Positions 4,005-45,128 of a stretch of DNA of 64,000 nucleotides are shown piece by piece. The translations under genes and the position numbers were made by a program. Origin of the DNA: Cellulomonas hominis. GTDB taxonomy: Bacteria > Actinomycetota > Actinomycetes > Actinomycetales > Cellulomonadaceae. Every line of letters begins with the position of its first letter. The first letter of the stretch is position 1. The DNA lies in assembly GCF_005239125.1 (NCBI RefSeq), contig NZ_SZYE01000002.1, positions 1 through 64,000 on the forward strand, in the 5' to 3' direction. Below the pieces are notes generated by a model. The model was not told the origin of the DNA. It was given only the letters and a program-made list of their open reading frames with translations, and did no database searches.

Positions 4005-4019
4005 ACCCCATCCTGACGC

Positions 4020-4051
4020 TTGACCTTGACCCAGGGGCGGGGTCGCAGCCT
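4020..4051 (+). promoter_or_regulatory. MerR-type promoter with spacer dyad
   Basis: A TTGACC -35 (4020-4025) and a weak CAGCCT -10 (4046-4051) are separated by 20 bases, the long spacing typical of MerR targets. The spacer holds the dyad GACCC-N7-GGGTC (4028-4044). It lies between the divergent MerR gene and the esterase. Three better examples of the same layout occur elsewhere in the window. Confidence 0.55.
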
Positions 4052-4109
4052 GGGTCCGACCGGACGCGATCCGCGCGCCCGGGCCCGTCTCCCACGAGAG
4101 GACCACCGC

Positions 4110-5021
4110 ATGACCGGCATGCTGCACGGCTGCCTCCCCGACACGGAGTACCTCGAGCTCACGGCGCGGTCAGGGCGTCGCTACGGGATCTGGCTGACGA
4201 CGCCGCCCGGGTACGCGGACGGCACGGATCCGCTCCCGCTCGTGTACGTGGTCGACGGCAACTGGTCCGTGGGCCTCACGGCGCCCCTGATCGTCACCCA
4301 GCTGGACCCGTTCCTCGCGGTCGCCCCGTACGTCCAGGTCAGCGTCGGGTACGCGGGCGAGGACGCGTCGGACTGGGACACGCTCCGGAACCGGGACCTC
4401 GTGCCGCCGGGCGAGCCCGTGAACGAGATCACCCTGTCCACGCTCGTGACGGCTCGCGACCGCGGGCTCATGTCGCAGGCGGTCGTGGACGCCTACCTCG
4501 CCGAGCTCGCCGACACCCGCGCCGACGCCTTCCTCGACTTCCTGACCCACGAGCTGCACCCGCACCTGACCTCGCGGCTCCGCGTCAGCGAGACCGGGCA
4601 CGGGCTCTTCGGCTACTCGTACGGAGGGCTGTTCGCCCTGTACGCGTGGCTGCGCGACGCCGCGCCGTTCGCGACCTTCGGTGCGGGCAGCCCGGGGGTC
4701 CTCGCCGAGGACAGCCAGATCTTCGCGCTGATCGACGCCCTGCCGGAACGCCGCACCGACGCGACCCCCGCGCGGCTGCACCTCACCGGCAACGAGGTCG
4801 AGGCGCTCGGGCCCGTGCCCGTCTACCGGAGGCTGGCGAGCCAGCTCCTCGCCGTGCACGACCGGCTGCAGAGCACGGACCGGGCGCCGGACGTGTCCAC
4901 CGCCCTCCTGCGCGAGACGCACGTCACCGGGCTCCAGGCCTCGTTCCTGAGCTACCTGAAAGCGTGCCGCTCGGGGGCCGAGGGCTCCGGCACCCGCGGG
5001 GGCCGAGCACGGCCGGCGTGA
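4110..5021 (+). CDS. alpha/beta hydrolase, esterase-D / enterochelin-esterase-like family
   Basis: A 303-residue hydrolase of the putative-esterase family (the IroE/YbbA type). It shows the early motif YGIWLTTPPGY, the segment LVYVVDGN, and the nucleophile elbow FGYSYGGLFALYAW near residue 165. A late ETHVTGL near the C terminus could supply the catalytic His. The ATG at 4110 is preceded by GAGAGGAC, which favours it over upstream in-frame starts. It is divergent from the MerR gene and probably regulated by it. There is no signal peptide, so it probably acts in the cytosol. Substrate unknown. Confidence 0.88.
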   Translation: MTGMLHGCLPDTEYLELTARSGRRYGIWLTTPPGYADGTDPLPLVYVVDGNWSVGLTAPLIVTQLDPFLAVAPYVQVSVGYAGEDASDWDTLRNRDLVPPGEPVNEITLSTLVTARDRGLMSQAVVDAYLAELADTRADAFLDFLTHELHPHLTSRLRVSETGHGLFGYSYGGLFALYAWLRDAAPFATFGAGSPGVLAEDSQIFALIDALPERRTDATPARLHLTGNEVEALGPVPVYRRLASQLLAVHDRLQSTDRAPDVSTALLRETHVTGLQASFLSYLKACRSGAEGSGTRGGRARPA

Positions 5022-5134
5022 GCCACCGGGCCCCCGCGGCGCGCTCGGCGCCGGTCGGGCGTCGGCATCGTGTTGAATGGTCGCTCTGGTCAGCGGCGAG
5101 GCACCCCGTCCTCCGCCACGCGGAGAGGACGCAG

Positions 5135-5497
5135 GTGACGAGTCCGGGTTGGTTCGCAGCCGTGGGGTGCGCCGTGCTGCTCGGCGTCCTCGACGTCGTG
5201 ATCTGGGCGGTCGTCTCGGCCGCCGGCGGCGCCGGTCGGAGCCGCTCCGCGGGCATCCGCCTGCCGTCCCTGATGGCGAGCGAGGAGGCCTGGCGCGCCG
5301 GGCACGCCGCGGCGCGGAAGGTCATGGGTCCGCTGCTGGTCGCGGCTGCGGTGATCGCCGTGCTGTCCGTCCCCCTGCAGCTGTCACCGATCGCCTACGT
5401 CGTCACCCTGGGGCTGTCCCTCGCCTGCACGGTCCTGGCGCTCGGGGCGGGAGCGGCGGCCGCCTCGCGGGTCGCCCGCCAGCGCGCCGACGACTGA
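5135..5497 (+). CDS. SdpI-family membrane protein
   Basis: A 120-residue protein with three hydrophobic helices (about residues 5-27, 65-85 and 90-112). Between the first and second helix it has the SdpI-family signature GIRLPSLMASEEAWRAGH. SdpI is the Bacillus immunity protein against the SDP toxin, but most actinobacterial relatives have no known toxin partner and none is visible here. A GGAGAGG ribosome site lies upstream of the GTG start. Confidence 0.85.
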   Translation: MTSPGWFAAVGCAVLLGVLDVVIWAVVSAAGGAGRSRSAGIRLPSLMASEEAWRAGHAAARKVMGPLLVAAAVIAVLSVPLQLSPIAYVVTLGLSLACTVLALGAGAAAASRVARQRADD

Positions 5498-5507
5498 CCG
5501 CCCCGAC

Positions 5508-6047
5508 TCAGTCCGGCCGGAGGCCCCCGCGGAGGACAGCGGCGATCGTCCCGCGGTCCTCCGGCGGGCCGAGCCGGGCGGCGTGCTCGAACCCGCAGAC
5601 CAGGTGCATGAGCTGCTCCAGGGTGAGCTCCTGCCGGACGTCGCCGGCGCGCTGGGCGCGCTCCAGCAGGACGGCGGCGCTCCGCGTCAGCTCGGCCTTC
5701 GCGTCGCGGACCTCGGGGGAGGAGCCGTCGGCCGCCAGGAGCACCTGCTGCAGCCCGTCGTCCGCGAGCATCAGGTCCAGCACGGTGGCGAGGAACCCGT
5801 GGAACGCGGGACCTGCGGCGTCGTCGGCCACGGCGGCGCGGGCGGCGTCGAGCGCCCGCTGGACGGTGCCCGCGGTGAGCTGCTCGACGAGGGCGTCGAC
5901 CGTGGGGAAGTGCCGGTAGACGGTGCCGACGCCGACCCCGGCGGCGCGCGCGACGTCGTTGAGCCGGAGGGTCCCGCGGTCCTGGCCGGCGGCGGCCTCG
6001 AGGATGCGTTCGCGGCTGCGGGCGGCGTCGGCGCGGAGGGGGGACAT
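5508..6047 (-). CDS. TetR-family repressor
   Basis: A 179-residue TetR protein. The N-terminal HTH contains LNDVARAAGVGVGTVYRHF near residues 28-46; the C-terminal ligand domain is helical (LADDGLQQVLLAADG, LEQLMHLVCGFEHAARLG). The start MSPLRADAARSRERIL fits the family. It is divergent from an SDR whose start is 84 bases away, with two 13-bp GGATGA-type dyads between them. The gene ends 11 bases from the convergent SdpI-like gene. Confidence 0.93.
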   Translation of the reverse strand: MSPLRADAARSRERILEAAAGQDRGTLRLNDVARAAGVGVGTVYRHFPTVDALVEQLTAGTVQRALDAARAAVADDAAGPAFHGFLATVLDLMLADDGLQQVLLAADGSSPEVRDAKAELTRSAAVLLERAQRAGDVRQELTLEQLMHLVCGFEHAARLGPPEDRGTIAAVLRGGLRPD

Positions 6048-6068
6048 GTGGACCACCCTACCTGAAGC

Positions 6069-6112
6069 GGATGAAGCATCCGGTACGGTGACCACGACCG
6101 GATGATCTATCC
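6069..6112. promoter_or_regulatory. paired TetR operator candidates
   Basis: Two similar 13-mers, GGATGAAGCATCC (6069-6081) and GGATGATCTATCC (6100-6112), start 31 bases apart between the divergent TetR and SDR genes. Each has GGAT/ATCC arms, and both share the first six bases. The second lies just upstream of the SDR start. These are the likeliest sites for the adjacent TetR protein. Confidence 0.55.
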
Positions 6113-6131
6113 ACTTACGGACGGGGCCACC

Positions 6132-7103
6132 ATGACCGAGCAGACGACCACCCACCGGACCGCGACCGGCGACGCGACCTGGGATCCGGCGCGCCCGCCC
6201 CGCCAGGACGGGCGCACCGTCGTGGTCACGGGCGCGACCGCCGGCATCGGGTACTTCGCGGCCGAGCAGCTCGCGGCCGCGGGCGCGGAGGTCGTGCTCG
6301 CCTCGCGCTCCGCCGCCCGGCTGGCCGGGGCGCGGGAGGCGATCCTCGCCCGGACCCCGGACGCGCACGTGCGGACCGTCGTGCTGGAGCTCGGCTCCTT
6401 CGGGGCGGTCGACGAGGCGGCGGCCGAGCTCGCGGCGCTCCCGCGCCTCGACGGCGTGTTCCTCAACGGCGGCGCGATGTCCATGAGCACGCGCGCCCGC
6501 ACGTCGGACGGCCACCCGCTGCTGCTCGGCACGCACGTCCTCGGGCACGTGCGGCTGCTCGCGGGGATCCTGCCCGCGCTGACGGCGACCGCCGTCGAGC
6601 ACGGGGGAGAGGGGCGGGTCGTGCACGCCTCGACCGGCTTCGTCGCGCGGTTCCGGCCGGACGTCGACGACCCCGCGCGGGTGCCGCGACTCGGTGTCGT
6701 CGCGTACGCCAAGGCCAAGGCCGTCACGGAGGTGCTCGCGTTCGAGCTGGACCGGCGGCTGCGCGCGGCCGGGCGGCCCGTGGCCTCGGTGGTCACGCAC
6801 CCCGGTGTGGGCGTCGACGCGCGCACGCCGCACCGCCCGGGCATCCGCGACGACAGCACGCCGTACCGGCGCAACCCGTACACCCCGTGGGCGCAGGGCA
6901 AGGACGCGGCGGCCTGGCCCGGCGTCCGCGCGCTGACCGACCCCGGGATCCGCGGCGGGGACTACGTGGCGCCCCGCGAGGGGATGCGGGGTCTGCCGGT
7001 GCGTTTGGCGGCGCCCGCGCGGACCGCCGACCCGGGGGCCGACGCGGTGCGCCGCGTCTGGGAGCGGGTCGAGGCCCTCGCGGGCGTCGAGCTCCGCGTC
7101 TGA
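6132..7103 (+). CDS. SDR-family oxidoreductase (retinol-dehydrogenase / WW-oxidoreductase-like)
   Basis: A 323-residue short-chain dehydrogenase. The dinucleotide motif is TVVVTGATAGIGYFAAEQLA (about residues 32-51), and NGG at FLNGGAMS replaces the usual NNAG. The active site has a Ser in VVHASTGF and a YAKAK motif (Tyr-x-x-x-Lys) near residue 195. The length and the LNGGA motif fit the retinol-dehydrogenase/WWOX-like group. The ATG at 6132 is chosen over an upstream in-frame ATG that would lie in the operator. It is probably repressed by the divergent TetR protein. Confidence 0.9.
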   Translation: MTEQTTTHRTATGDATWDPARPPRQDGRTVVVTGATAGIGYFAAEQLAAAGAEVVLASRSAARLAGAREAILARTPDAHVRTVVLELGSFGAVDEAAAELAALPRLDGVFLNGGAMSMSTRARTSDGHPLLLGTHVLGHVRLLAGILPALTATAVEHGGEGRVVHASTGFVARFRPDVDDPARVPRLGVVAYAKAKAVTEVLAFELDRRLRAAGRPVASVVTHPGVGVDARTPHRPGIRDDSTPYRRNPYTPWAQGKDAAAWPGVRALTDPGIRGGDYVAPREGMRGLPVRLAAPARTADPGADAVRRVWERVEALAGVELRV

Positions 7104-7117
7104 GGAGCCCTCGCGCC

Positions 7118-7169
7118 CGCGCCCCGACGCGCTGCCGGCTACCTGGCGCCGGCAGCGCGTCGGGGCGCG
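7118..7169. terminator. 22-bp perfect hairpin, bidirectional terminator
   Basis: The arms 7118-7139 and 7148-7169 are perfectly complementary over 22 bp with an 8-base loop. The hairpin sits between two converging genes (SDR and MFS). There is no T tract, which is common for actinobacterial terminators. Confidence 0.8.
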
Positions 7170-7196
7170 CACGCCGGCCGCGTGCGGGCGCGCGCG

Positions 7197-8666
7197 TCAC
7201 CGTCCGGGGAGCGCCCGGGCCCGCCGCACACCCGCGAAGCCGGCGGCGACGCATGCTCCGGCCAGCAGCGCGAGCGCCCCACCCGCTGCCGGGACGACAC
7301 GACCGAACTGCTCGACCTGCTGGTGCGTCCACGGGTCCGCCGACACGTCGCCCGCCACGAGCGTGGCGAGCACCGCGCCGCTGAGGGCGACACCGGCCGC
7401 CGTGGCCACCTCCGACGCGGTGTCGACGAGCGCGGCGCCGATGGTGGTCCGGTCCTCCGGCAGGCCGCGCATGACGTTCGTGCCCGCGACCACGCCGTTC
7501 ACGCGCATACCCGCGGCGACGAGCACCAGGGCGACCGCCACCCAGACGTAGCCGGCGGAACCGAGGACCGTGTACACGACCAGCCCGAGCAGCACGGCGA
7601 GCGCGCTGAGCCCGGCGGCCCGCTCGAGGCCGACCCGCTGCATGATCGGTCGGATCAGGTACCCGCCGGCGATCAGGACCACGACCTGGGGGAGGGTACC
7701 GAGCGCGGCCTGCGCGGGGGTCCACCCCCACGCGAGCTGGAGCTGCAGCGTCACCAGGAACCCGAGTCCGGACGCCGCCAGCCCCGTCGCGGCCTTGAAC
7801 GCCAGCCCGGACGACACCAGGGGCCGCCCGACCAGGCGCAGGTCGAGCAGGGGGTGCGGCGTGGACCGCTCCCGCCGGACGAACGCGACGGCGGCGAGGA
7901 CCGCACCGGCGGCGGCCGCGTAGCCCACCCAGGGCGGGACGCCCGCCTCCACGAGCAGGGTCGGGGCGAGCAGCGCCAGCACCACCGACGCGGTGCCGAG
8001 GATCCCGCCGGGCACGTCGACGGGGGCGCGGTGCAGCTCGCCCGGCTGGTCGGCCGCGACGCCGCGGACCAGGCACACGAACGCCAGGGCGGCGATCGGG
8101 GCGTCCGCGATCAGCAGCGCCTGCCACGGCGCGAAGGCGAGCACGACACCGCCGACGGTGGGACCGAGGGCCAGGCCGACGAGGCCGACCGTGGAGATGA
8201 CGGTGGTCGCGCGCACCCGCCGCTCGTCGTCGTCGAAGAGCCGGAACGCGAGGGCCAGGGACCCGGGCGTCGTCATCGCGGCGGCGACGCCCATGGCCGC
8301 CCGGACCGCGACGAGCTGCCAGATCGACGTGACCGCCCCGGCCGCGAGGCTGGCCGTCCCGAGCAGGACGAGCCCGACCAGCATCACCCGGCGGCGCCCG
8401 ACACGGTCGGCGAGGGCGCCGAGGGTCAGCATCAGGCCGCCCAAGACCACGGCGTACGAGCTGGTCACCAGCTGCAGGGACACGGCCGAGGCGCGCAGGT
8501 CGCGGCCGATCGTCGGCAGCGCGACGTTGAGGACCGAGTTGTCGAGCATCTCGACCAGGAACACGGCCGAGAGGCCGGTGAGGGGCAGCCACGCCTCGCG
8601 CAGGGTCCGTGCGGGCCGGGGTGGCTGCGTGGTCGAGGTGACAGGGCTCTGAGGTCGCGTGGTCAC
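7197..8666 (-). CDS. MFS drug exporter, DHA2 (14-helix) family
   Basis: A 489-residue membrane transporter with about 14 predicted helices. It has the DHA2 motif NVALPTIGRDL in helix 1, motif A GALADRVGRRRVMLVGL between helices 2 and 3, and motif C-like GPTVGGVV in helix 5. This is the LfrA/QacA/EmrB type of proton-coupled multidrug exporter in the cytoplasmic membrane. The GTG start is preceded by GAAGGAG. No regulator gene adjoins it, which is unusual for the family; the 460 bases upstream are empty. Confidence 0.93.
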   Translation of the reverse strand: MTTRPQSPVTSTTQPPRPARTLREAWLPLTGLSAVFLVEMLDNSVLNVALPTIGRDLRASAVSLQLVTSSYAVVLGGLMLTLGALADRVGRRRVMLVGLVLLGTASLAAGAVTSIWQLVAVRAAMGVAAAMTTPGSLALAFRLFDDDERRVRATTVISTVGLVGLALGPTVGGVVLAFAPWQALLIADAPIAALAFVCLVRGVAADQPGELHRAPVDVPGGILGTASVVLALLAPTLLVEAGVPPWVGYAAAAGAVLAAVAFVRRERSTPHPLLDLRLVGRPLVSSGLAFKAATGLAASGLGFLVTLQLQLAWGWTPAQAALGTLPQVVVLIAGGYLIRPIMQRVGLERAAGLSALAVLLGLVVYTVLGSAGYVWVAVALVLVAAGMRVNGVVAGTNVMRGLPEDRTTIGAALVDTASEVATAAGVALSGAVLATLVAGDVSADPWTHQQVEQFGRVVPAAGGALALLAGACVAAGFAGVRRARALPGR

Positions 8667-11458: not shown

Positions 11459-11496
11459 CTACACCGTGTCGTGTAGATCTACACCGCACGGTGTAG
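11459..11496. promoter_or_regulatory. tandem TetR operators, near-perfect 38-bp palindrome
   Basis: Two 16-bp palindromes of the form TACAC-N6-GTGTA lie at 11460-11475 and 11480-11495, separated by GATC. Together they form a 38-bp palindrome with only the two positions on each side of the inner core mismatched. It sits between the divergent ABC ATPase and TetR starts, so it probably serves both promoters. Confidence 0.8.
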
Positions 11497-11525
11497 CATC
11501 GTCCCGAGCACCACGGAGGAGGGCG

Positions 11526-12179
11526 ATGACGACGGTGGGCGACAAGCCCGTGCGCGAGGGCCAGGCGCACAAGCGTGCGGCGATCCTGACCGCCGCCAGA
11601 GAGCTGTTCCTGCAGACGGGCGTGGAGCGCACGAGCATGGACGCGGTGGCTGCGCTCGCCGGGGTGTCGAAGCGGACGGTCTACGACTACTACGGGGACA
11701 AGCGGCGCCTCCTGCTCGGCGTCGTGGAGGACGCGGGGGAGCGGGCGCTGGCCACGCTCCGACGGCTGGTCGCGCAGCACCTCGACGACGCGAGCATCAC
11801 GGACGTCGCCGCTCTCGACGAGGCGCTCACCGCGCTCGCCGCCGACCTCGGCCGCTCCCTGCTGCTCTCGTCGGACTACCTCGCCGCCGTCCGGCTGATC
11901 AACGAGAACGAGTCGCTGCTGCCGGAGCTCGACGACCACCCGCTCGACGAGGCCCACGCGCAGGTCCTCAGCGAGCGCGTCGACCGCTTCGCCCGCGCCG
12001 GCCTGCTCGACGCCGAGGACCCGGGGCTCGCCGCCGCGCACTTCCACGCCCTGACCGCCCTGCGCGTGCTCAACGAGCCGGCGCGCCGGCGCGCCGAGAG
12101 CGAGCACGTCCGGCGGATCATGACCGAGGGTGCGCGCGCGTTCGTGCGCGCCTACGAGGCGCGCGACGCCGGCGCGTGA
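11526..12179 (+). CDS. TetR-family repressor of the ABC exporter
   Basis: A 217-residue TetR protein. The HTH is TSMDAVAALAGVSKRTVYDYYGDK at about residues 39-62, followed by a TetR_C domain. A GGAGGAGG ribosome site precedes the ATG. It is divergent from the ABC exporter pair with the tandem operator between, which is the standard layout of an autoregulated repressor that is released by the exported compound. The C-terminal end overlaps a short hairpin. Confidence 0.95.
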   Translation: MTTVGDKPVREGQAHKRAAILTAARELFLQTGVERTSMDAVAALAGVSKRTVYDYYGDKRRLLLGVVEDAGERALATLRRLVAQHLDDASITDVAALDEALTALAADLGRSLLLSSDYLAAVRLINENESLLPELDDHPLDEAHAQVLSERVDRFARAGLLDAEDPGLAAAHFHALTALRVLNEPARRRAESEHVRRIMTEGARAFVRAYEARDAGA

Positions 12180-12192
12180 CCGGCGCGCCGGC
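12168..12192. terminator. 9-bp hairpin over the TetR stop codon
   Basis: GCCGGCGCG (12168-12176) pairs with CGCGCCGGC (12184-12192) across seven bases that contain the TGA stop. It separates the TetR gene from the converging two-component operon. Confidence 0.5.
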
Positions 12193-12263
12193 TACCGCCG
12201 ACGCCGACGTCCACGCCCGGGGCGGGCGCGCTGACGACGTCGTCGCTCCGCCGGCTGGAGCGG

Positions 12264-12938
12264 TCAGCCGCGCCCGACGTGCACCAGACCCGTCTCGTAG
12301 GCGAGGACGACGGCCTGGACGCGGTCGCGCGCCCCGAGCTTCGGCAGGATGCGCGCCAGGTGGGTCTTCACCGTCGCCTCCGACACCTGGAGCTGCTCGG
12401 CGATCTCGCCGTTCGAGCGCCCCTCGCCGACGCAGCGGAGCACCTCGAGCTCCCGCGGCGTGAGCACGGCCAGCCGCGGGTCCACCCCGTCGTCCGACCG
12501 GGTGCCGCGCGCGGGCAGGGCGCGGGAGAACAGCTCGAGCATCCGCCGGGTGATCCGGGGGGAGACCACGGCGTCACCCGCCGCGACCGTCCGCACCGCC
12601 GCCACCAGCTCGGTCGGGGCGGCGTCCTTCACGAGGAACCCGCTGGCGCCGGCCTGCAGCGCCGCGAAGGCGTACTCGTCGAGGTCGAACGTGGTGAGGG
12701 CGAGCACCCGCACCTCGGGGTCGGCCGCGACGATCTCCCGTGTGGCCTCGATGCCGTCGGTCCTCGGCATCCGCACGTCCATGAGGACGACGTGCGGCCG
12801 CAGGGTCGCGGCCTGCTCGACCGCCGCGCGCCCGTCGCCCGCCTCGCCGACGACCTCCAGGTCGCCGGCGCTCTCCAGCAGCAGGCGGAAGCCCATGCGG
12901 ACCAGTGCGTGGTCGTCCGCCAGCAGCACCGTGGTCAT
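12264..12938 (-). CDS. NarL/LuxR-type response regulator
   Basis: 224 residues: a receiver domain (residues 1-120; acidic pair in LLADDHALVRMG, phospho-acceptor Asp in VVLMDVRMPRTDG, Lys in GFLVKDAAP) and a LuxR HTH (LTPRELEVLRCVGEGRSNGE, near residues 158-215). Its ATG overlaps the kinase stop by four bases (ATGA). It is the last gene of the ABC-ABC-kinase-regulator operon, so it probably activates that operon on a cell-envelope or drug signal sensed by the kinase. A candidate binding site is the dyad at 16240-16256. Confidence 0.95.
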   Translation of the reverse strand: MTTVLLADDHALVRMGFRLLLESAGDLEVVGEAGDGRAAVEQAATLRPHVVLMDVRMPRTDGIEATREIVAADPEVRVLALTTFDLDEYAFAALQAGASGFLVKDAAPTELVAAVRTVAAGDAVVSPRITRRMLELFSRALPARGTRSDDGVDPRLAVLTPRELEVLRCVGEGRSNGEIAEQLQVSEATVKTHLARILPKLGARDRVQAVVLAYETGLVHVGRG

Positions 12939-14296
12939 GCGTCCCCCTCCGCGTGCGGCAGCACGGCCCGGACGCGCCAGCCGGCCCCGTGCGGACCGGC
13001 CTCGACGGTGCCGCCGAACGCCGCGGCGCGCTCGCGCATCCCGAGCACGCCCCGCCCCGCGCCCGCGCCTCCGGGGGTGGCGCGGGCGTCGCCCTGGTCG
13101 GTCACGACGAGCTCCACCGACCCGGGGGTCCGGCGCACGGCGAGCGCGGCGCCCGCGGTCCCCGGCGCGTGCCGCAGCACGTTGGTCAGCGCCTCCTGCG
13201 CGATGCGGAACACCGTGAGCTGCAGGGCCGCGGGGAGCGTCGCCAGGCCGCGGTCGTCGAGCCCGGTCGCGTGCAGCGCGAGGCCCGCGGTGCGGAACCG
13301 GTCGGTGAGTGCGCCCAGGTCCCCGGTGCCGGGCTGCGGGGTGAGCGGCACCCCCGGGCCCGCCGCGCCACCGGGCTCGTCCTCGTGCAGGACGTCCAGG
13401 ACCCGGCGCATGTCGCGCAGCGCCCCCTGGCCGGTCGCGACCAGCTCGCCGAGCGCCGCCCGGGACCGGTCCGGTGCCTGGTCCAGCGCCGCGGCCGCAC
13501 CACCGCCGAGGGTCACCATCACCGAGACGCTGTGCGCGACGACGTCGTGCATCTCGCGGGCGATGCGTGCGCGCTCCGACGCCCGGGCGAGCTGCACGCG
13601 CTGCTCCTGCTCGCGGGCCACCGCGTTCGCCTGCTCGACGAAGGCCGCGAGGTGGAGCCGCCGGTTCCGCACGCTCGCACCGGTCGCGACGGCGAGCAGG
13701 GCGAGCACGACCACCGGCGCGGCGGTCTGGAACCAGACGGTGCCCCGGAGGTCGCGGCCCGCCCCGTCCGGGTCGAGACCGGCCATGAGGGCGCCGACGA
13801 CCGGCGGCAGCGGGAGCAGCCACGCGGCGAGGAGCAGCGAGGTGACCGTCCCCGCGAGCACGCGCCACGTGACCGCCGGGTCCCGACGGGTGGCGACGGT
13901 GAACAGCGCGACCGCCGCCCCGACCTCGAAGCCCGACGTCGCGCCGGTCGCCGCCAGCGCCCCGACCCCGAGCAGCGTCATCGCGACGGCCACGGGTACC
14001 GGCCGGCGGCGGCGCACGAGCAGCGCGACCACCCCCGCCACCGTCATCCCGGCGGAGGCGAGCTGCATCTGCAGCACCCGGTCCCCGCCGAACCGCGCGT
14101 GCAGGGAGTACATCGAGTCCGCTCCGACGCCCAGCAGCAGCGCCCACCCCGCGAAGCCGGCGGCCACGAGCAGGTCCACCACCACCGGGCGCCGCCGCAG
14201 GAACCGGCGGACCGGTCCGAGCGGGCGCGCGGACAGCTCGGTGAAGACCGGCGGGGTGGTCAGCCCGTCCTCGTCGGTCCTGTCGTGCGCGGCCAC
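12935..14296 (-). CDS. sensor histidine kinase, NarX/DesK-type (HisKA_3)
   Basis: 453 residues from GTG, preceded by GGGAGAG. The N-terminal half has about six membrane helices with no large outside loop, so it likely senses a signal in the membrane. The HisKA_3 phospho-acceptor is H in REMHDVVAHSVSVMV near residue 258, and the ATPase domain has EALTNVLRHAPG and GRGVLGMRERA. It phosphorylates the response regulator encoded four bases overlapping downstream. The pairing with ABC exporter genes is typical of drug or envelope stress modules. Confidence 0.94.
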   Translation of the reverse strand: MAAHDRTDEDGLTTPPVFTELSARPLGPVRRFLRRRPVVVDLLVAAGFAGWALLLGVGADSMYSLHARFGGDRVLQMQLASAGMTVAGVVALLVRRRRPVPVAVAMTLLGVGALAATGATSGFEVGAAVALFTVATRRDPAVTWRVLAGTVTSLLLAAWLLPLPPVVGALMAGLDPDGAGRDLRGTVWFQTAAPVVVLALLAVATGASVRNRRLHLAAFVEQANAVAREQEQRVQLARASERARIAREMHDVVAHSVSVMVTLGGGAAAALDQAPDRSRAALGELVATGQGALRDMRRVLDVLHEDEPGGAAGPGVPLTPQPGTGDLGALTDRFRTAGLALHATGLDDRGLATLPAALQLTVFRIAQEALTNVLRHAPGTAGAALAVRRTPGSVELVVTDQGDARATPGGAGAGRGVLGMRERAAAFGGTVEAGPHGAGWRVRAVLPHAEGDA

Positions 14297-34978: not shown

Positions 34979-35157
34979 ACGCCGGCACCTCTGCGCCTCG
35001 CGATCGGTCGATCTACTAGGTCGCTGCCGACGCCGGGGCCTTGACGCCGGTCGCCGCAGCCGGGCTCACCAGACGCTCCGGTTCTCGCTCCGGTCCGTCG
35101 AGCTCGACGGCGGGCGCGTCACCGCTTGCTCGCGCTCGGAGGGCTCGGCCGGCGAGG

Positions 35158-36747: not shown

Positions 36748-37012
36748 CGGCAGCTCCATCGCGCTCGCTACTGCCACCTCGGCGCACGGACAACAGCGCC
36801 GTGGTCGGACGGGGTGATCCGAGGAGCGGGTCAGCGCCGGCCGGTGCCCGAGAGCTGCATCGGCCGGCGCCGGGGCTCGCCGCTGCTCGGTGAGCTCGTC
36901 GACCTGGGTGGCGAGCGACTGCTGGAGGACGGTGGGTGGACGAATTCCCTGGGGTCAGCCGCCCACCGCGGTCACGTCGACGACCTCCGCGGACGATGGC
37001 CGGCGCGGTCCC
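36748..37012. other. unassigned intergenic DNA
   Basis: Between a terminator and the end of the convergent SDR gene I see no start with a ribosome site and no protein-like frame. Short translations such as LLGELVDLGGERLLEDGG appear in one frame but lead nowhere. Confidence 0.4.
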
Positions 37013-37867
37013 TCAGCGCGCCTTGTCGGTCGTCAGCGCCAGGTCCCGGGCTGCTGCGACGTCGGACGCCAGGGCCGTGGCCCGCTCCGCGGCCATCGCC
37101 GAGGAGTCCGAGCCGAGCTGCTGGCGCAGCGGCCCGTCCGCACGGGCCGCGATCAACGCGATCGCACGAGCTGCTCTGACGGGGTCACCGGGCTGGGTGC
37201 CCGGCATCGCGCGGTGCTGCTCGATCATCGAGGCGATGGCCGGGTACGCGTCGCCCGTGTCTGCGGCGACCTCGAGCGAGCTCGCCCGGAGGAAGTCCGT
37301 GTCGAAGTACCCGGGCTCGACGATCGTGACGCGGATGCCGTGGTCCGCGACCTCGCCGGCCAGCGACTCCGTGAGCCCCTCGACGGCGAACTTCGCGGCG
37401 CAGTACAGGCCCCAGCCCGGGAAGGCCAGGAGCCCCAGGATCGAGGACACGGTGATCACGTGCCCGGACCCGGCAGCGCGCATGCCCGGCAGCACCTCGC
37501 GCAGGACGTTCCAGGTGCCTGCGACCTGGACGTCGAGCATGCGGCGCACGTCGGCGTCGCTCGTGTCCTCGACCGCGCCCAGGTAGCCGTAGCCCGCGTT
37601 GTTGACCACGACGTCGATGGCGCCGAACCGCGTGGTCGCCTCCGACACCGCGGTGCGCACGGAGTCCGGGTCGGTGAGGTCGACCTCGAGCGCCAGGAGG
37701 CCCCCGGTCGGGACGCCGTCGAGCGCGGCGAGCAGTCGCTCGGTCGAGCGGGTCGTGGCTGCCACGCGGTCGCCCCGGCCGAGGAGATGGCGGACCAGGG
37801 CGAGGCCGAGGCCCCGGGAGGTCCCGGTGATGAACCAGGTCGCGGCGCTGTCGGTGGGGGATGTCAT
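37013..37867 (-). CDS. SDR-family oxidoreductase
   Basis: A 284-residue classical SDR: TWFITGTSRGLGLALVRHLL, NNAG in VVVNNAGYGYLG, Ser in ITVSSILGLLA, YCAAK (Tyr-x-x-x-Lys) near residue 158, and EPGYFDTDFL. It starts 147 bases from a divergent XRE/MmyB-like regulator, with an inverted repeat between. A similar SDR/XRE unit occurs at 39624-41325. Confidence 0.94.
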   Translation of the reverse strand: MTSPTDSAATWFITGTSRGLGLALVRHLLGRGDRVAATTRSTERLLAALDGVPTGGLLALEVDLTDPDSVRTAVSEATTRFGAIDVVVNNAGYGYLGAVEDTSDADVRRMLDVQVAGTWNVLREVLPGMRAAGSGHVITVSSILGLLAFPGWGLYCAAKFAVEGLTESLAGEVADHGIRVTIVEPGYFDTDFLRASSLEVAADTGDAYPAIASMIEQHRAMPGTQPGDPVRAARAIALIAARADGPLRQQLGSDSSAMAAERATALASDVAAARDLALTTDKAR

Positions 37868-37920
37868 GGGAGTTCCTCTCTCGTCGGTTCCTCCAGCCTC
37901 CGGTGGTCGGCGGGGCCGTG

Positions 37921-37948
37921 GGGCCGCACAATCGGCCGTGTGCGGCCC
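37921..37948. promoter_or_regulatory. inverted repeat between SDR and XRE genes
   Basis: GGGCCGCACA (37921-37930) and TGTGCGGCCC (37939-37948) are exact inverted copies with an 8-base gap. It lies between the divergent SDR and XRE regulator starts and is a candidate operator. Confidence 0.55.
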
Positions 37949-38014
37949 AGGAGGCGCGCGCCTAGGACGCGCAGGGCCAGGCGCGACGACAACGTGGTGC
38001 GAGACGATCGAGCA

Positions 38015-38875
38015 GTGGCCGACGTCAACCGCGAACTCGCCGACTTCCTGCGCCGCGCGCGCGGCCAGGCCGACCGGTCCCGGGCGGGCCTCCCCCCGGA
38101 CGATCGGGTGCGCCGCGTGCCGGGCCTCCGGCGGGAGGAGGTCGCTGCGCTCGCCCGCGTGTCGACGGACTACTACACGAGGCTCGAGCAGGGACGGCGG
38201 ATCGTCCCGTCGGCAGGCGTCGTGGCGGCGATCGCGACGGCCCTGGACCTGGACGACGCAGGACGCGCGCACCTGACCCACCTGATCGGCGCGGCTCCGC
38301 GCCCGTCCCGACGGCCCGTCCGTGCGCAGAGCGCTCGCAGGGGGCTGCATCAGCTCCTCGACGCTCTCGACGGCGTCCCGGCGCTGCTGCTGGGACGACG
38401 TACGGACGTGCTCGCGGCCAACAGGCTCGCCCGCGCCCTGCTGGCCGACTTCGACGCGATGCCCGCTCGGGACCGGAACTACGCGCGGTGGATGTTCCTC
38501 GATCCCGAAGCGCGCGAGCGCCTCGTCGACTGGGATGCGCAGGCCCGGACCGTCGTGGAGAACCTCCGCCTCGAAGCGGGTCGCGACCCCGACGACCCGG
38601 CGACACAGGCGCTCGTCGGCGCCCTGACCATCGCCAGCCCGGACTTCGCCCGGTGGTGGGAGGAGCACCGCGTCCACCAGCGCACGTTCGGCGACAAGCG
38701 GTTCCGGCATCCTGTGGCCGGTGACCTCACCCTGCAGTACGAGACGCTGACCAACCCGGGCGACCCGGAGCAGGTGCTGTTCCTGTTCACCGCCGAACCC
38801 GGGTCACCGTCGCGCCAGGCGCTCGACCTGTTGACGAGCTGGACGGTGGAGCGGGCCGGGCACCCGTCCGCCTGA
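38015..38875 (+). CDS. XRE-family regulator with MmyB-like ligand domain
   Basis: 286 residues from GTG. The HTH (residues about 10-80) contains VPGLRREEVAALARVSTDYYTRLEQGR; the C-terminal MmyB-like domain has LDALDGVPALLLGRRTDVLAANRLARALL and FGDKRFRHPVAGDLTLQYETL. MmyB-like regulators are usually divergent from an SDR or dehydrogenase and seem to sense a ligand; the Streptomyces example controls methylenomycin genes. The partner here is the divergent SDR at 37013. Confidence 0.94.
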   Translation: MADVNRELADFLRRARGQADRSRAGLPPDDRVRRVPGLRREEVAALARVSTDYYTRLEQGRRIVPSAGVVAAIATALDLDDAGRAHLTHLIGAAPRPSRRPVRAQSARRGLHQLLDALDGVPALLLGRRTDVLAANRLARALLADFDAMPARDRNYARWMFLDPEARERLVDWDAQARTVVENLRLEAGRDPDDPATQALVGALTIASPDFARWWEEHRVHQRTFGDKRFRHPVAGDLTLQYETLTNPGDPEQVLFLFTAEPGSPSRQALDLLTSWTVERAGHPSA

Positions 38876-39137
38876 CACCGCCGCTCCCGGACCAGGTCGG
38901 TCCCCCCGGCCTCCTGCGCGCGAGCGAGCTGAGTCGAGCGCGCCGGATCGGTAGAGGTGCAGGTCAGGAGATACGCAGGCCAGTACTGGCACCGCTGCCG
39001 ATCAGGATCGGGCGTACTCGCCGGACGACGGTCTCCTGCGAGGACGATCGAGCTACTCGGCGACCGAACCCCGGACCTCGGCGGCGCTCGTCCGTTAGCG
39101 TGCCGAGAGCTCGGGCACCGGCCCGGCAAGACGGGGG

Positions 39138-39623: not shown

Positions 39624-40364
39624 TCAGCGGCCGGGGAGGCTCGCCAGCGCCTGCGAGCGCCGCGCGACCAGCTCGGCGTACGTGCCGTCGCGCTCCGCCC
39701 ACCGGTGCTGCAGCACGCCCTGCACGAGGATCTCGGCGGGCGTGGGGTCCTGGGCGAGCAGCCCGAGGGCCTCGTCGAGGAACGCGTCGAGCGGCAGGGC
39801 CGCCGGGTTGACCTTCTCCTGGCCGGCCGTCGCGACGGCCGGCGGCACGAGCTCGGTGACCTCGACGCCGGTGCCGGCGAGCTGCGCGCGCAGCGCCTCG
39901 GTGTAGGCGTGCACGCCGGCCTTGGACCCCGCGTACGTCGGCATCGAGGGGAACGGCAGGAACGCGATGCCCGAGCTCACCGTGACGATAGCGCCGCCGC
40001 CGCGGCCCACCAGGTGCGGCGTGAAGGCGTCGACGACCCGGATCGTCCCGAGCAGGTTGGTCGCCACCGTCGTCTCGGCGGCCGGGTAGTGCGCGGGGTC
40101 GCGCAGGTCCTCGACCAGCATCACGCCGGCCATCGCGACGACGAGGTCGAGGTCCGGGTGCGCGGCCAGCACGGCGTCACGGGCGCGGAGCACGGAAGCG
40201 GCGTCGGTGACGTCGACCTGCACGGTCTCCAGGTCGTCGACCCGTCCGGTGCTGCGGCCGCCGACGACGACGGTGCTGCCGGCCGCGGCGAGCCGCCGCG
40301 CGAGGCCGAGCCCGATCCCTGACGTGCCGCCGACGACGAGGGCGGTGCGGTGGGTGAGGTCCAT
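39624..40364 (-). CDS. SDR-family oxidoreductase, DltE-like
   Basis: A 246-residue classical SDR: TALVVGGTSGIGLGLARRLA, the family NNAG replaced by VAMAGVML, Ser in VTVSSGIAFL, YAGSK (Tyr-x-x-x-Lys) near residue 145, and PPAVATAG. The VPP motif and length fit the DltE-like subgroup. It is divergent from an XRE/MmyB-like regulator with a 21-bp dyad between. Confidence 0.92.
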   Translation of the reverse strand: MDLTHRTALVVGGTSGIGLGLARRLAAAGSTVVVGGRSTGRVDDLETVQVDVTDAASVLRARDAVLAAHPDLDLVVAMAGVMLVEDLRDPAHYPAAETTVATNLLGTIRVVDAFTPHLVGRGGGAIVTVSSGIAFLPFPSMPTYAGSKAGVHAYTEALRAQLAGTGVEVTELVPPAVATAGQEKVNPAALPLDAFLDEALGLLAQDPTPAEILVQGVLQHRWAERDGTYAELVARRSQALASLPGR

Positions 40365-40440
40365 GGGAGGTCCTTCTTCCTGTACGGGTTGTGGTGCTGC
40401 CAGGCTGCCGGTGCCCCGCAGCCGGTGGGTCCGCCCCGTC

Positions 40441-40491
40441 GGTCCTGGGAGTGGCAGGACCACCCCTCCGGGGCCGTCGCCCGCCTACCGT
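40441..40491. promoter_or_regulatory. XRE operator candidate and leaderless promoter
   Basis: GGTCCTG-N7-CAGGACC (40441-40461) is perfectly symmetric. TACCGT (40486-40491) ends six bases before the GTG of the XRE gene, the leaderless layout seen repeatedly in this window. Confidence 0.6.
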
Positions 40492-40497
40492 GGCCCG

Positions 40498-41325
40498 GTG
40501 AGCGGAGACGACGGGACGAACCGGCTGGGCGCGTACCTGCGCGCCCGGCGCGCGCTCGTCACCCCCGAGCAGGCCGGCATTCCTGGCGGCGCGAACCGCC
40601 GCGTGGCGGGCCTGCGGCGCGAGGAGGTGGCGCTGCTGGCCGGCATCAGCGCCGACTACTACCTGCGCCTCGAGCAGGGGCGGGACCGGAACCCGTCGGT
40701 CCAGGTGCTGGACGCACTGGCCCGGGTGCTCCGGCTCGACGAGGTGGAGTCGGCGTATCTGCAGGACCTGGCCGCGCCACGACCCCGCGGGCGGGCGCGG
40801 CGCCCGACCGGCGAGCGGGTCCCGGGGCGCCTGCACCACCTGCTCGCGGCGCTGGACGTGCCCGCGTTCATCGAGGGCCGGACGTTCGACGTGCTCGCGG
40901 CCAACTCGCTCGCCCAGGCGTTCTCGCCGCGGCTGCGGGTGGGCGAGAACCGGCTGCGGTCCCTGCTGCTCGACCCCGAGGAGCGGGCGTTCCACGACGA
41001 CTGGGAGGGCGCGGTCGCCGGCTTCGTCGCGGCCTTCCGGCAGAGCGCCGGGGACGGCGCCGACGACCCGCGCACGGTGGAGCTGGTGGGCGAGCTCTCG
41101 CTGGCGAGCGCCCGGTTCCGGACGCTGTGGGCGCGGCAGGACGTGCGCCGCCTCGCGGGCGGGACCACGGTGGTGCACCACCCCGTCGTCGGCGAGCTGA
41201 CGCTCCACCGGGACAAGCTGCCGGTCGACGGGGTGGTGCTCGTCGTGTACTACGCGGACGAGGGCAGCCCGAGCGCCGACCGGCTGCGCCTGCTCGGGGC
41301 GCTCGGCGCGCCCGCGCGAGGCTGA
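40498..41325 (+). CDS. XRE-family regulator with MmyB-like ligand domain
   Basis: 275 residues from GTG. The HTH has VAGLRREEVALLAGISADYYLRLEQGR, and the MmyB-like domain has LLAALDVPAFIEGRTFDVLAANSLAQAF and HPVVGELTLHRDKLPV. It is paralogous to the regulator at 38015 and is in the same divergent arrangement with an SDR. The transcript is probably leaderless. Confidence 0.95.
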   Translation: MSGDDGTNRLGAYLRARRALVTPEQAGIPGGANRRVAGLRREEVALLAGISADYYLRLEQGRDRNPSVQVLDALARVLRLDEVESAYLQDLAAPRPRGRARRPTGERVPGRLHHLLAALDVPAFIEGRTFDVLAANSLAQAFSPRLRVGENRLRSLLLDPEERAFHDDWEGAVAGFVAAFRQSAGDGADDPRTVELVGELSLASARFRTLWARQDVRRLAGGTTVVHHPVVGELTLHRDKLPVDGVVLVVYYADEGSPSADRLRLLGALGAPARG

Positions 41326-41485
41326 GCGGACCGGGGACGTGGTCGGGCGCGGAGTTCGTGGTCGGCCGTCGCGGCACATCCGGTAGCCGATCCCACCGTC
41401 GACCCCGCCGACGTGTCGGTGCCCTACTGGCGTCTCTGCGTATCAAGGTCGGGCGTACTGAGAGGTCGGGCTCGCCCTCGCGTGG

Positions 41486-42046: not shown

Positions 42047-42916
42047 GTGAGCAGCACTACCGCGCTTCCCGGCGGCACCTGGACCCTGGGGGACCGGACC
42101 GTCACCCGCTTCGGCTACGGCGCCATGCAGCTCGCCGGTCCCTGGGTGATGGGGCCGCCCGCAGACCGCGACGCCGCCTTGGCGGTCCTGCGCGAGGCCG
42201 TCGCGGCCGGCATCACCCACATCGACACCAGCGACGCCTATGGGCCCCGCGTCACGAACGACCTGATCCGCGAGGCCCTGCACCCGTACGACGACTCGCT
42301 CGTCGTGGCGACCAAGGTCGGCGCCGAGCGCGACGCAGAGGGCGGCTGGCCGACCGCGCGCCGCCCCGAGGACCTTCGCCAGCAGGTCACGGCGAACCTC
42401 GAGGCACTCGGCGTCGACTCGCTCGACCTCGTGAACATGCGGATGGGCGACGCCACCGGGCCGCAGGCCGGGTCGATCGCCGAAGGCTTCGAGACCCTCG
42501 CGCAGCTGCAGCAGGACGGCCTCGTCCGGCACCTCGGGGTCAGCAACGTCACGCCCGAGCAGGTCGCCGAGGCTCGCGCCATCGCCCCCGTCGTCAGCGT
42601 GCAGAACATGTACAACCTCGCCGTCCGCCACGACGACGACCTGATCGACGACCTGGCGCCCGACGGCATCGCCTACGTCCCGTTCTTCCCGCTCGGCGGG
42701 TTCACGCCACTGCAGTCGGACGCCCTCGCACGCGTCGCCGAGCGCACGGGCACCAGCTCCATGGGCGTGGCCCTGAGCTGGCTGCTGCACAGATCGGCGA
42801 ACATCCTGCTCATCTCGGGAACGAAGTCGGTGGCGCACCTGCGGGAGAACATCGCCGCCGCGGCGATCGAGCTGTCTGACGAGGACCTGGCAGACCTGGA
42901 GACGATCGGACGCTGA
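42047..42916 (+). CDS. aldo/keto reductase
   Basis: 289 residues from GTG. The catalytic tetrad is visible: Asp in HIDTSDAYGP, Tyr in the same segment, Lys in VVATKVGAE, and the expected His position replaced by Asn in DLVNMRMGD. The NADPH site is ISGTKSVAHLRENIAAA. It reduces carbonyls with NADPH in the cytosol. The missing His, normally LxxxHxP, also occurs in some family members. It is probably induced through the divergent HxlR regulator. Confidence 0.93.
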   Translation: MSSTTALPGGTWTLGDRTVTRFGYGAMQLAGPWVMGPPADRDAALAVLREAVAAGITHIDTSDAYGPRVTNDLIREALHPYDDSLVVATKVGAERDAEGGWPTARRPEDLRQQVTANLEALGVDSLDLVNMRMGDATGPQAGSIAEGFETLAQLQQDGLVRHLGVSNVTPEQVAEARAIAPVVSVQNMYNLAVRHDDDLIDDLAPDGIAYVPFFPLGGFTPLQSDALARVAERTGTSSMGVALSWLLHRSANILLISGTKSVAHLRENIAAAAIELSDEDLADLETIGR

Positions 42917-42958: not shown

Positions 42959-43016
42959 GACGCGGACGAACATCCACGGGCTCTCGGCGTTGCCGGTGGC
43001 GAGGTCGGGCGGCTTT

Positions 43017-43379
43017 TCAGGTGCGCTCGGACCAGTCCTGCGAACGGTTCGGGCAGGGGAGTGGGGGTGTGCCGGGCTCGATGGTCATGCCGGCGGGGGA
43101 GTCGCGCACGGCATCCACGCGCAGCGCGACGACCTTGACCAGGGGTTGCGCGAGCAGCAGCAGCAACATGCGTGCGGTGCGGTAGGGCAGCGACTCACTG
43201 GTCCCGACGAGCATCTCGCCGATCCAGGCGGTGGGTTGGTCCTGGGCGATGGCGGGGCGTGAGCGCGGCGTGCGGTACGGGACGTCCAGGCGCGGGCTCA
43301 GTCGGTGGCGTCGCGCGATCACCATGAAGGTGCGGTCCGGCTTCCTCGACCGCCACGCAACCTCCCGAAGTGGTGACAT
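43017..43379 (-). CDS. protein of unknown family
   Basis: 120 residues from ATG 43379 (the frame is open further upstream to 43460). Third codon positions are mostly G or C and the composition is rich in Y, W, D, E and not Arg/Gly-biased, so I think it is real. Visible features are REVAWRSRKPDRTFMVIARR, PAIAQDQPTAWIGEML and a leucine-rich ARMLLLLLAQPLVKVVALRV. I recognise no family. It stands isolated next to the dif-like site. Confidence 0.6.
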   Translation of the reverse strand: MSPLREVAWRSRKPDRTFMVIARRHRLSPRLDVPYRTPRSRPAIAQDQPTAWIGEMLVGTSESLPYRTARMLLLLLAQPLVKVVALRVDAVRDSPAGMTIEPGTPPLPCPNRSQDWSERT

Positions 43380-43594
43380 CTGGTGAATCTCGTCGCACCG
43401 GATGTCACACCGACGCAAGACCTGCAGGTCAGCGCCTCGGCGCTGGCGCGCCGATTGCACCCCCGTGCCGCCATGCGCTGCGCTCCTGTCGCGCTTCCTC
43501 GACGTTCGCGCCGGTCAGAGGGCGGTTCTGCCCGCGTGCCGGGGAGGGGTGACGCTGGCCGTGTGCGACATCAGATGCACGGACGCAGACCCCG

Positions 43595-43622
43595 CTCTGA
43601 CATAACGTGCATTATCGGCGTC
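43595..43622 (-). other. candidate XerCD recombination site (dif)
   Basis: Read on the minus strand, CGCCGATAAT is followed by the five bases GCACG and then TTATGTCA. This is the XerC arm, spacer edge and XerD arm of the actinobacterial dif consensus as I remember it; 22 of 28 degenerate positions agree and the mismatches are mostly at the outer edges. It lies in 435 bases without a recognised gene (43380-43814). I see no second copy in the window, which argues against an integrated dif-exploiting element. It would mark the replication terminus region. Confidence 0.55.
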
Positions 43623-43814
43623 GAGCCAATCTGGCGCCCACCCAGACGAGAGGACTCGTCTCACCGTGAGCAGACGTCCGCGCACCCGGACAGTCCCTGG
43701 GTGCTCCCCGGACGGCCAGCGGGCACGGGGCGACGACAGGTCCGGTCGCACATCTCGCCGAGGACCGGGTCCGGAGCCGGTGACCGACGTCCACGACGGT
43801 GGCATGCTCGCTCG

Positions 43815-44387
43815 ATGATCGACGAGTTCGCGAAGACCTACCTCCACGACGACCTCCGCGAGGTGCGGCGGTCGCTCCTGGGCACGCTCGACGGGCTCTC
43901 CGAGTACGACGTGCGGCGACCGCTCACGAGGACGGGAACCAACCTGCTCGGCCTGGTCAAGCACCTCACGCTGTCCGAGGCGCGCTACCTGGGCGATGTC
44001 TTCGGCCGTCCGTATCCCGAGCGGATCCCGCGCTTCGACGACCCGGGCTACGCCAACCGCGACAGCCTGTGGGTCACCGAACGGGAGTCGCGCCACGACG
44101 TCGTGGACGGGTACCTCCGGGCGTGCGCGCACGCGGACGCCACCATCGAGACGCTGCCCGTCGACGCCCGTGGCGTGGTGCCGTGGTGGCCGCGGCCCGA
44201 CGTGATGCTGTTCAACGTCATGGTGCACGTGCTGACCGAGACCAACCGCCACGCCGGCCACGCGGACATCGTGCGCGAGCAGCTCGACGAGGCGGCCGGC
44301 GCCGCCCCGGTGACGTCCACGGCTGCCGACTGGGCGGCGCACCGCTCCCGCGTGGAGGCGGCGGCACGCTCAGCGGCCGGTCGCTGA
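43815..44387 (+). CDS. DinB-family protein (DUF664)
   Basis: A 190-residue four-helix-bundle protein. Conserved DinB features are the His in LLGLVKHLTLSEARYLGDVFG and the HAGH motif in TETNRHAGHADIVREQLD near residue 160, which together form a metal triad. DUF664 proteins are related to mycothiol- and bacillithiol-S-transferases, so thiol-dependent detoxification is possible. Confidence 0.9.
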   Translation: MIDEFAKTYLHDDLREVRRSLLGTLDGLSEYDVRRPLTRTGTNLLGLVKHLTLSEARYLGDVFGRPYPERIPRFDDPGYANRDSLWVTERESRHDVVDGYLRACAHADATIETLPVDARGVVPWWPRPDVMLFNVMVHVLTETNRHAGHADIVREQLDEAAGAAPVTSTAADWAAHRSRVEAAARSAAGR

Positions 44388-44472
44388 ACGCACCGAGAGT
44401 CCGGAAGTCGATCGCCGAACCGGGACAGATCGCGCCCGGTTCTGGACACTCGGCGGCTCGGTCGCGCGCTCG

Positions 44473-44880
44473 TCAGCGCGGTTCGAGCACCACGACCGGG
44501 ATCTCCCGAGTCGTCTTCGCCTCGTAGCCGGCGAAGCCCGCGTGCTCGGCCTTCTGCTTCTCCCAGATCGCGGTCCGCTCGTCACCGGTGGCGACCCGTG
44601 CCAGGAACTCGCGGGTCTCGGTGCCAATCTCCGCCGAGACCCGCGGTTCTGCGACCAGGTTGTGGAACCACGCCGGGTTGACGTCGAGCCCGGCGAACGA
44701 GGCGAAGACCGCGACCCGGCCGTCGCCCAGGTCCTGGTACATCACCGGGTTGACGCGCTCCTGGCCGGATCTGGCCCCGGTGGTGTGCAGCAGGAGCAGC
44801 GGAGACCCCTCGAACCGTCCCCCGACCCTGCCCTCGTTCGCGCGGAACTCGGTGATGATGCTGGTGTTCCAGTCGTTCAC
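44473..44880 (-). CDS. F420H2-dependent reductase, Ddn (nitroreductase) family
   Basis: 135 residues from GTG with GGAGAGG upstream. LLLLHTTGARSGQERVNPVMYQ is the family entry motif, and VFASFAGLDVNPAWFHNLVAEP is the NPAWFHNL..P signature. This form is a close textbook match to Ddn-like deazaflavin reductases. It lies in opposite orientation to the MerR gene at 45167; the 286 bases between hold that gene's promoter and nothing else I recognise. Confidence 0.92.
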   Translation of the reverse strand: MNDWNTSIITEFRANEGRVGGRFEGSPLLLLHTTGARSGQERVNPVMYQDLGDGRVAVFASFAGLDVNPAWFHNLVAEPRVSAEIGTETREFLARVATGDERTAIWEKQKAEHAGFAGYEAKTTREIPVVVLEPR

Positions 44881-45128
44881 GGTGGCCTCTCCCCTGCTCC
44901 CCTGCCGGCCTGCGCCGGCTTCTGACCCAACTCGTTCCGGTCGCCCGCGCCGCGCCTCGCGCTCAGAGCGCCGCCGCGAGGACCCGCGCCCGCCGTGCGA
45001 GCGCCTCGTGGCCGGTCGGGCCACCGGCGGTTCAGCAGGTCGACGCCCTCGGCCCCGCACGCGGCGCGCACTCCCCCGACCGGTCCGCGTCGTCGCTCAC
45101 CCTCGCGATGCTAGTTCGCCGCACCCGG

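Follow-up and report, generated by a model that had tools for sequence, protein, structure and literature searches.

Integrons gather same-orientation cassettes at one anchored site, with recombination-type sites bounding the cassettes and an Xer-like tyrosine recombinase. In Escherichia coli, FtsK contacts the XerD side of dif, and asymmetric DNA needs on that side were reportedly described by Bonne et al. in 2009. Mobile DNA at dif includes the IMEX LME-1 and the GGI, and LME-1 brings a dif mimic and relies on the recombinase of its host (PMC9765430). Elements of the IS1202 family are 1.5-kb insertion sequences with a large transposase that lie in fixed orientation next to dif, 5 bp from its XerC side (PMC10132070). 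In Acinetobacter, gene modules that reshuffle are associated with sites of the dif type, called pdif (PMC13141974).

Here, we describe a dif site of Cellulomonas and what adjoins it. A chromosomal dif was to be expected, and the new part is an array anchored on it. We consider it likely that dif, in part of the genus, is both the XerCD site and the docking point, on its XerD side, of a cassette array run by a tyrosine recombinase (Int). A further reading, that this is a new cassette-capture platform with dif or a dif-like copy as its primary site, amounting to an integron with dif in the place of attI and with an Xer-like Int that has HTH and Cys-rich partners, is one we hold tentatively, at slightly less than an even chance. 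No dif-anchored cassette array in Actinobacteria was found described in those parts of the open-licence PMC literature that were available.

The dif site and the replication terminus

The draft assembly has 4,212,638 bases in 407 contigs, and the window covers the initial 64 kb of one of them, C222 (81,175 bases). An earlier sequence-only reading had proposed a dif-like 28-mer on its minus strand, and the arms, center, and coordinates check out: the letters from 43622 to 43595 are GACGCCGATAATGCACGTTATGTCAGAG, laid out as an 11-bp XerC arm, the 6-bp center TGCACG, and an 11-bp XerD arm. The 435-base gap in which that reading had set the site was not reproduced. Depending on the flanking ORF taken, the interval is 354 bases, from the end of an ORF remnant (43460) to the start of a mycothiol-S-transferase gene (43815), or 898 bases between the nearest convincing genes, of which one ends at 42916 and the other starts at 43815.

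43595 to 43622, minus strand: dif 28-mer (XerC arm 43622-43612, center TGCACG 43611-43606, XerD arm 43605-43595)
43815 to 44387, plus strand: mycothiol-S-transferase/DinB-type gene, neighbor of dif on the XerC side
43541 to 43548, plus strand: FtsK-orienting-type motif GGGGAGGG, on the XerD side, 46 bp from the XerD edge and directed at dif

The 28-mer is almost certainly the chromosomal dif, in itself an ordinary thing to find. A search of the whole assembly that allowed up to three mismatches found the arm pattern at a single place, 43595-43622, with no mismatch, and did not find the reversed control pattern. A 23-mer with up to three mismatches had no match across 100 shuffles of the window, and the single genome copy and zero shuffle matches together rule out a chance match to a short motif. 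Counted by eye, 23 of 28 letters are the same in the published dif of Frankia alni (PMC3025954). The genome encodes FtsK gamma, an XerD above the model cut-off, and a second recombinase, labeled XerC-like, that reached 262.8 bits on the XerD model, below its cut-off.

The position is that of a terminus. Cumulative GC skew in the window is maximal at 40-44 kb, a bracket that includes dif, and dif is separated from dnaA by 44.5 to 53.1% of the contig in 16 near-complete Cellulomonas chromosomes, namely, those among 20 genomes examined that have both on one near-complete contig. In our own draft, dnaA is on a different contig from dif, and the antipodal position is thus read from relatives only. 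With the single copy and the switch in motif polarity below, these results bear out the proposal of an XerCD site at the terminus, and the assignment places the replication terminus on this contig. The orientation of dif relative to dnaA is the same in 8 and opposite in 8 of the 16 chromosomes, as would be expected if the axis from origin to terminus had been the center of repeated inversions.

A G-rich motif switches direction around the site. On our contig GGGGGAG points toward dif 38 times and away once, and with three relatives pooled the counts are 270 and 10; CGGGGGAG gives 177 toward and 2 away in the same pool, and the bias of GGGGAG is weaker (67 toward, 16 away). The likeliest switch on our contig falls at 43100-45050 for GGGGGAG and at 43550-43700 for GGGGAG. 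The E. coli motif GGGNAGGG is less polar here (16 toward and 4 away on our contig; 11 and 12 in G021). GGGGGAG, being strand polar and converging on dif as KOPS-type FtsK motifs do, is on sequence grounds a candidate FtsK-orienting motif for a group without one in the literature examined. Of 93 non-redundant family loci, 61 have a GGGGA directed at dif no more than 80 bp from the XerD arm, and only 1 has one on the XerC side; the corresponding counts are 14/38 and 2/38 in the order and 14/20 and 1 in the class. By analogy with E. coli, where FtsK contact is on the XerD side, such an asymmetry would fit. The nearest FtsK motif of E. coli K-12 is likewise on the XerD side of dif, at 115 bp by our own count and at 124 bp in a published account (PMC2680272). 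The G-rich motif is not among the k-mers with the strongest enrichment next to dif in the order set, and EM motif finding on dif flanks gave nothing interpretable.

The dif pattern is widespread. At up to three mismatches it is found in 54/60 genus and 149/150 family genomes, and at up to one mismatch in 110/119 order and 119/148 class genomes (our own included in each). All 28 columns are conserved over 107 family loci (47 of the first 50, without L025, L038, and L041, plus 60 fetched). Because these loci were picked for having the pattern, its fixed letters are bound to look conserved, but the flanks are not. Conservation ends at the XerC edge and extends two columns (C 81%, G 75%) past the XerD arm; the flank columns otherwise carry little information. 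The window's 23-mer was also found in a Bifidobacterium.

Six of the 60 genus genomes gave no dif match (G008, G018, G024, G041, G050, and G013), and in G022 and G055 the sole match has three mismatches; a relaxed pattern found nothing convincing in any of these. Assembly gaps or a diverged dif may account for the dif-less members. G008 is dif-less as a single contig of 4,266,344 bases. A 21-mer, CAGATRRCGAGCCATATGGCA, recurs in the dif-poor or dif-less G018, G024, G055, and G022, in most cases no farther than 250 bases from where a contig ends, and could be a repeat that breaks assembly.

L106, L114-L116, L118, L121, L122, and G055:C5:32: occurrences of CAGATRRCGAGCCATATGGCA

Farther out, the pattern at up to one mismatch is absent from 10/10 genomes of a genus with 7.1- to 9.9-Mb genomes (f37/g93) and from 4/6 genomes of an order-level genus (f14/g38). 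Linear chromosomes are expected to have no dif. Three genomes of genus g17 have a second site, CCAATAATGNACAATATGTCA, that shares its center with the dif of the respective genome. In two of them (G096:C1:1789074 and G125:C13:822478) the distance to dif is 5-7 kb and the strand is the other one, and in the third (G112:C23:699) the site is on another contig; it is possibly an IMEX. G183 has the same dif core near the ends of two contigs (C13:18 and C24:76), probably an assembly split at dif.

Repeats on the XerD side of dif

The lead to a repeat came from the XerD flank of our dif, where about 250 bp are 82% identical to G058 (289 bp including dif), and G058 carries a 74% copy of its own version of that flank 13.4 kb on. 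Two parts can be distinguished. LE, which begins TAGTCTGCGTAT, follows the XerD arm immediately on its 3' side in a number of Cellulomonas genomes, and RE is a 36-bp sequence with the consensus GAGTACGACCGATCCTGATACGCAGAGGTGCCAGTA; RE fused to LE recurs as sites that separate gene blocks. The fused RE/LE repeat holds an inverted repeat, noted as GATACGCAGA-N14-TCTGCGTATC, that we read as 13-8-13. The window contains the following parts.

43560 to 43594, minus strand: LE-like flank with GGTCTGCGTCCGTGCATCTGATGTCGCAC, directly 3' of the XerD arm, with four mismatches to TAGTCTGCGTAT by eye
43567 to 43580: palindrome of LE, like TTGCATCTGATGTAAC
42988 to 43334, minus strand: remnant of the ZF (Cys-rich) gene; relatives have 2.29 kb more (int, HTH, and most of ZF) near 43334
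42047 to 42916, plus strand: cargo of cassette 1, aldo/keto reductase (PF00248)
41425 to 41460, minus strand: RE site 1 (score 47; nhmmer E 9e-10)
40207 to 41325, plus strand: cargo of cassette 2, MmyB-like regulator (PF17765)
38984 to 39019, minus strand: RE site 2, then LE-like CTGGCCTGCGTATC
36915 to 38891, minus strand: block common to G035 (91.6%), with a short-chain reductase and an MmyB-like regulator, both named by eye
34980 to 35015, minus strand: RE site 3, a weak match scoring 20.5; past it comes the block that in G028 is placed directly at dif

RE site 2 is the sole match in our genome of two site patterns searched at up to three mismatches, and the window's LE-like flank, with its four mismatches, falls below the cut-off of the LE survey. 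In that survey LE adjoins the XerD arm at 7/52 genus, 1/55 other family, 1/39 order, and 0/21 class loci, the two outside the genus being one of another genus and one of another family. Mirrored LE was found at none of the loci in the four sets, and control windows gave 0/936, 0/990, 0/702, and 1/378 matches, respectively.

RE was searched for in whole genomes, and 26 matches were found in 14/60 (our own included), with none for the reversed control. Twenty-one lie within 33 kb of the main dif, on its strand and on its XerD side. Two more, in G014 and G001, are at distances of 4.1 and 4.9 kb from an additional dif-like site, which is altered and has LE after it, and three are not placed relative to a dif (one in G040 and two in G041). 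The match in G040 adjoins a fragment of the ZF gene, and another ZF fragment adjoins the dif of that genome. G041, which has no recognizable dif, has its RE sites on a 19.7-kb contig. Side preference was also seen with nhmmer on 20 oriented dif regions (31 matches in 13 regions, all on dif's strand and XerD side) and in a matrix scan of both strands of those regions at a score of at least 16 (28 matches, every one of them in the class that combines dif's strand with the XerD side and none in the remaining three). The matrix result is weak alone, as the matrix was built from the same regions and most of them include little XerC side: the 480 kb of XerC side come nearly all from G003, G058, G021, our own genome, G012, and G001, and the other 14 regions have less than 3 kb each. 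The whole-genome search is the better control.

The site could be an ordinary dif and nothing else, its adjoining repeats being unrelated intergenic repeats or a vertically inherited flank. That 45/52 genus dif loci are without LE at the cut-off is in keeping with such a reading, as is the low information of the flank columns at 107 loci. RE, however, is linked genome-wide to dif, its strand, and its XerD side, and, as described below, a dedicated recombinase adjoins dif and blocks are common to genomes at differing positions. We regard an ordinary dif alone as very improbable.

The sequence-only reading had argued that a mobile element using dif would bring a second copy. No second 28-mer is present in our genome at up to three mismatches, but the argument has to be amended, as mobile DNA seems to be anchored beside the XerD arm without duplicating dif. 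Elsewhere, dif-like sites with LE lie away from the main dif in five relatives (G014, G001, G049, G152, and G131). The one in G049 is on a replicon of 110,066 bases (C2) that may be a plasmid, with the dif-like site and then directly LE at about 100,976. In G021, a degenerate dif-like site with LE lies 3.6 kb away on the XerC side of dif; an earlier model contained and matched this copy, and the later nhmmer model left it out. These six cases would suit IMEX, elements without machinery of their own that enter through host XerCD and a dif-like attP, with RE as the decayed partner site, and such insertion leaves one good and one altered dif (PMC9765430). RE joints, however, hold no dif-like site, the best fit within 70 bp having 5-8 mismatches in 14 arm letters (22 joints in six genomes), and four elements beside dif carry their own Int, with six catalytic residues all kept. 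An origin through IMEX seems unlikely to us.

Two other ideas were dropped. A CATC-N-GATG palindrome, considered as a general accessory of dif, occurs, among the loci listed, at 3/31 of the genus and 0/17 others and belongs to one form of LE. A tie of the array to one replichore was rejected, as arrays are on the XerD side in both classes of dif orientation (G043, G045, and G028 in one; G058 and G021 in the other).

The gene trio and the shared blocks

A trio of genes, Int-HTH-ZF, lies beside dif in four species (G045, G058, G012, and G043), with the third gene interrupted in G058. The order in G045 is dif, LE, Int at +265, HTH, the Cys-rich protein, and RE at 3.6 kb. Int is there a tyrosine recombinase of 363 aa (PF00589), HTH is a Cro/C1-type protein of 111 aa (PF13443), and the Cys-rich (ZF) protein has about 500 residues with five CxxC pairs. 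The best PDB relative of Int is E. coli XerD, and R194, K227, H300, R303, H326, and Y335 are invariant in 15 homologues; we take these to be the six catalytic residues, by the roles known in the tyrosine recombinase family. Int is not an IntI, as it reached 43.2 bits on the integron-integrase model TIGR02249, which has a cut-off of 265. The Cys-rich protein had no Pfam match at 0.01 and no PDB match at E 1, and the idea that it is a second tyrosine recombinase found no support (hhalign probability 0.2%, E 0.38, five sequences).

Int was found in 13 family genomes. Three copies are within 300 bp of the main dif (G043, G045, and G180), two are beside a second dif-like site, where the trio is present (G131 and G152), and eight have no dif-like site at up to four mismatches inside 1.5 kb. 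The trio is mirrored on the XerC side of dif in G059 and G180. Just before Int in G045 and G043 (L278 and L279), a palindrome of the TGATGCAAC type, resembling that of LE, occurs twice. We guess from the shared palindrome that one protein of the trio binds both places, and the copy before Int is a candidate operator of the trio.

Our own strain appears to have lost most of the trio. The window matches its relatives to +288 and resumes at their +2577, and thus 2.29 kb that include Int are missing; Int is absent from the whole genome at E 1e-30. The segment was presumably lost by deletion rather than never present, and with the recombinase genes gone, the array is probably frozen. Its cargo is largely reductase plus regulator, the aldo/keto reductase and the MmyB-like regulator being assigned by Pfam and HxlR-, TetR-, short-chain, and quinone reductase-like genes being named by eye.

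Blocks are shared between arrays. Comparison of 13 arrays on the same strand (at least 250 bp at 75% identity or more) gave 23 shared blocks, and 14 were left when seven that are dif anchored in both genomes and two next to the deletion were set aside. The positions of these 14 differ by more than 1 kb in every case. Of the 56 ends of these displaced blocks, 17 come as close as 120 bp or less to RE or dif, compared with a mean of 4.1 and a maximum of 12 in 5000 random placements, and the other 39 ends are away from any site. One example is 7124-7788 of G009 and 3934-4598 of G038 (98.2%), which start at RE in both and end at the next RE in G038. Our own 4731-6708, the block at 36915-38891 of the window, matches 11461-13438 of G035 (91.6%), where it has an RE site on one side and another nhmmer site on the other. 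Finally, our 8627-10794 matches 68-2238 of G028 (94.8%); it adjoins our RE site 3 and lies directly at dif in G028, without a recognizable LE there, and this comparison gave no clean junction. By their sites and by block sharing, same-orientation cassettes are stacked at one primary site, and from this we infer movement.

Stacking might also arise by accretion, in which whole transposons of a Tn7- or IS1202-like kind pile up beside dif and then decay, with no movement of single cassettes. Fixed orientation beside dif and the stacking itself speak for accretion, IS1202-family elements have been called dif site hunters (PMC10132070), and the G058 array holds a 1.3-kb segment, probably an IS, that recurs at 99.9% identity some 15.6 kb farther along. 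Against accretion, Int is a tyrosine recombinase, and units down to 0.66 kb are shared between genomes one at a time, an argument that does not extend to the larger units. We give accretion a modest chance.

Proposed mechanism and comparison with known systems

We prefer cassettes run by a dedicated Int to stacked site-specific elements and to Xer-dependent IMEX. XerC and XerD would bind the arms of the 28-mer, and FtsK, loading on GGGGGAG-type motifs that converge from both sides, would join two dif sites at the septum and activate XerD, as is known in E. coli. Int, with the Cro/C1-type HTH and the five-CxxC protein, would insert circular units next to the XerD arm. The joint of the circular unit would be RE/LE, and the product would run dif/LE-genes-RE/LE-genes-RE and so on, with the newest unit nearest dif. 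We infer the role of Int, the circular intermediates, and the order of insertion. Our own strain would have lost its recombinase genes with the 2.29-kb deletion, after which the array would stop changing.

If true, the platform would tie gene capture to the terminus and bridge Xer and integron recombination. Beyond its exploitation by phages and IS elements, dif would be the standing dock of a cassette system that belongs neither to the integrons known so far nor to the dif modules of Acinetobacter. With such a system one could test directly how integron-like capture might arise from Xer-type recombination. The array, if it works as proposed, also predicts where variable Cellulomonas cargo lies, here often reductase-plus-regulator pairs.

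The dif/XerCD/FtsK system of E. coli and Frankia alni is alike in its 28-bp layout, terminus position, and converging polar motifs, with the nearest motif on the XerD side in E. coli; the polar motif is GGGNAGGG in E. coli, whereas it is GGGGGAG in Cellulomonas. Compared with LME-1 and the GGI, the array comes with a recombinase gene of its own in four of the relatives, and our own genome has no duplicate of dif. Compared with IS1202, it has a tyrosine recombinase (PF00589) beside dif and lies on the XerD side, which speaks against the dif-hunter kind. Acinetobacter modules are plasmid-borne, flanked by inverted pdif sites, and moved by XerCD, whereas the joints here are without a dif-like site and the units have one orientation beside dif. 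Integrons differ in several respects, as here the anchor is dif, the recombinase is inside the first unit, there are two extra partner genes, Int scores far below the integrase cut-off, and the sites are RE/LE rather than established attC sites. The array is nonetheless like an integron in that its cassettes, all in the same orientation and bounded by sites of a recombination type, start from a single anchor, in that cassettes recur between genomes at differing positions, and in its Xer-like tyrosine recombinase.
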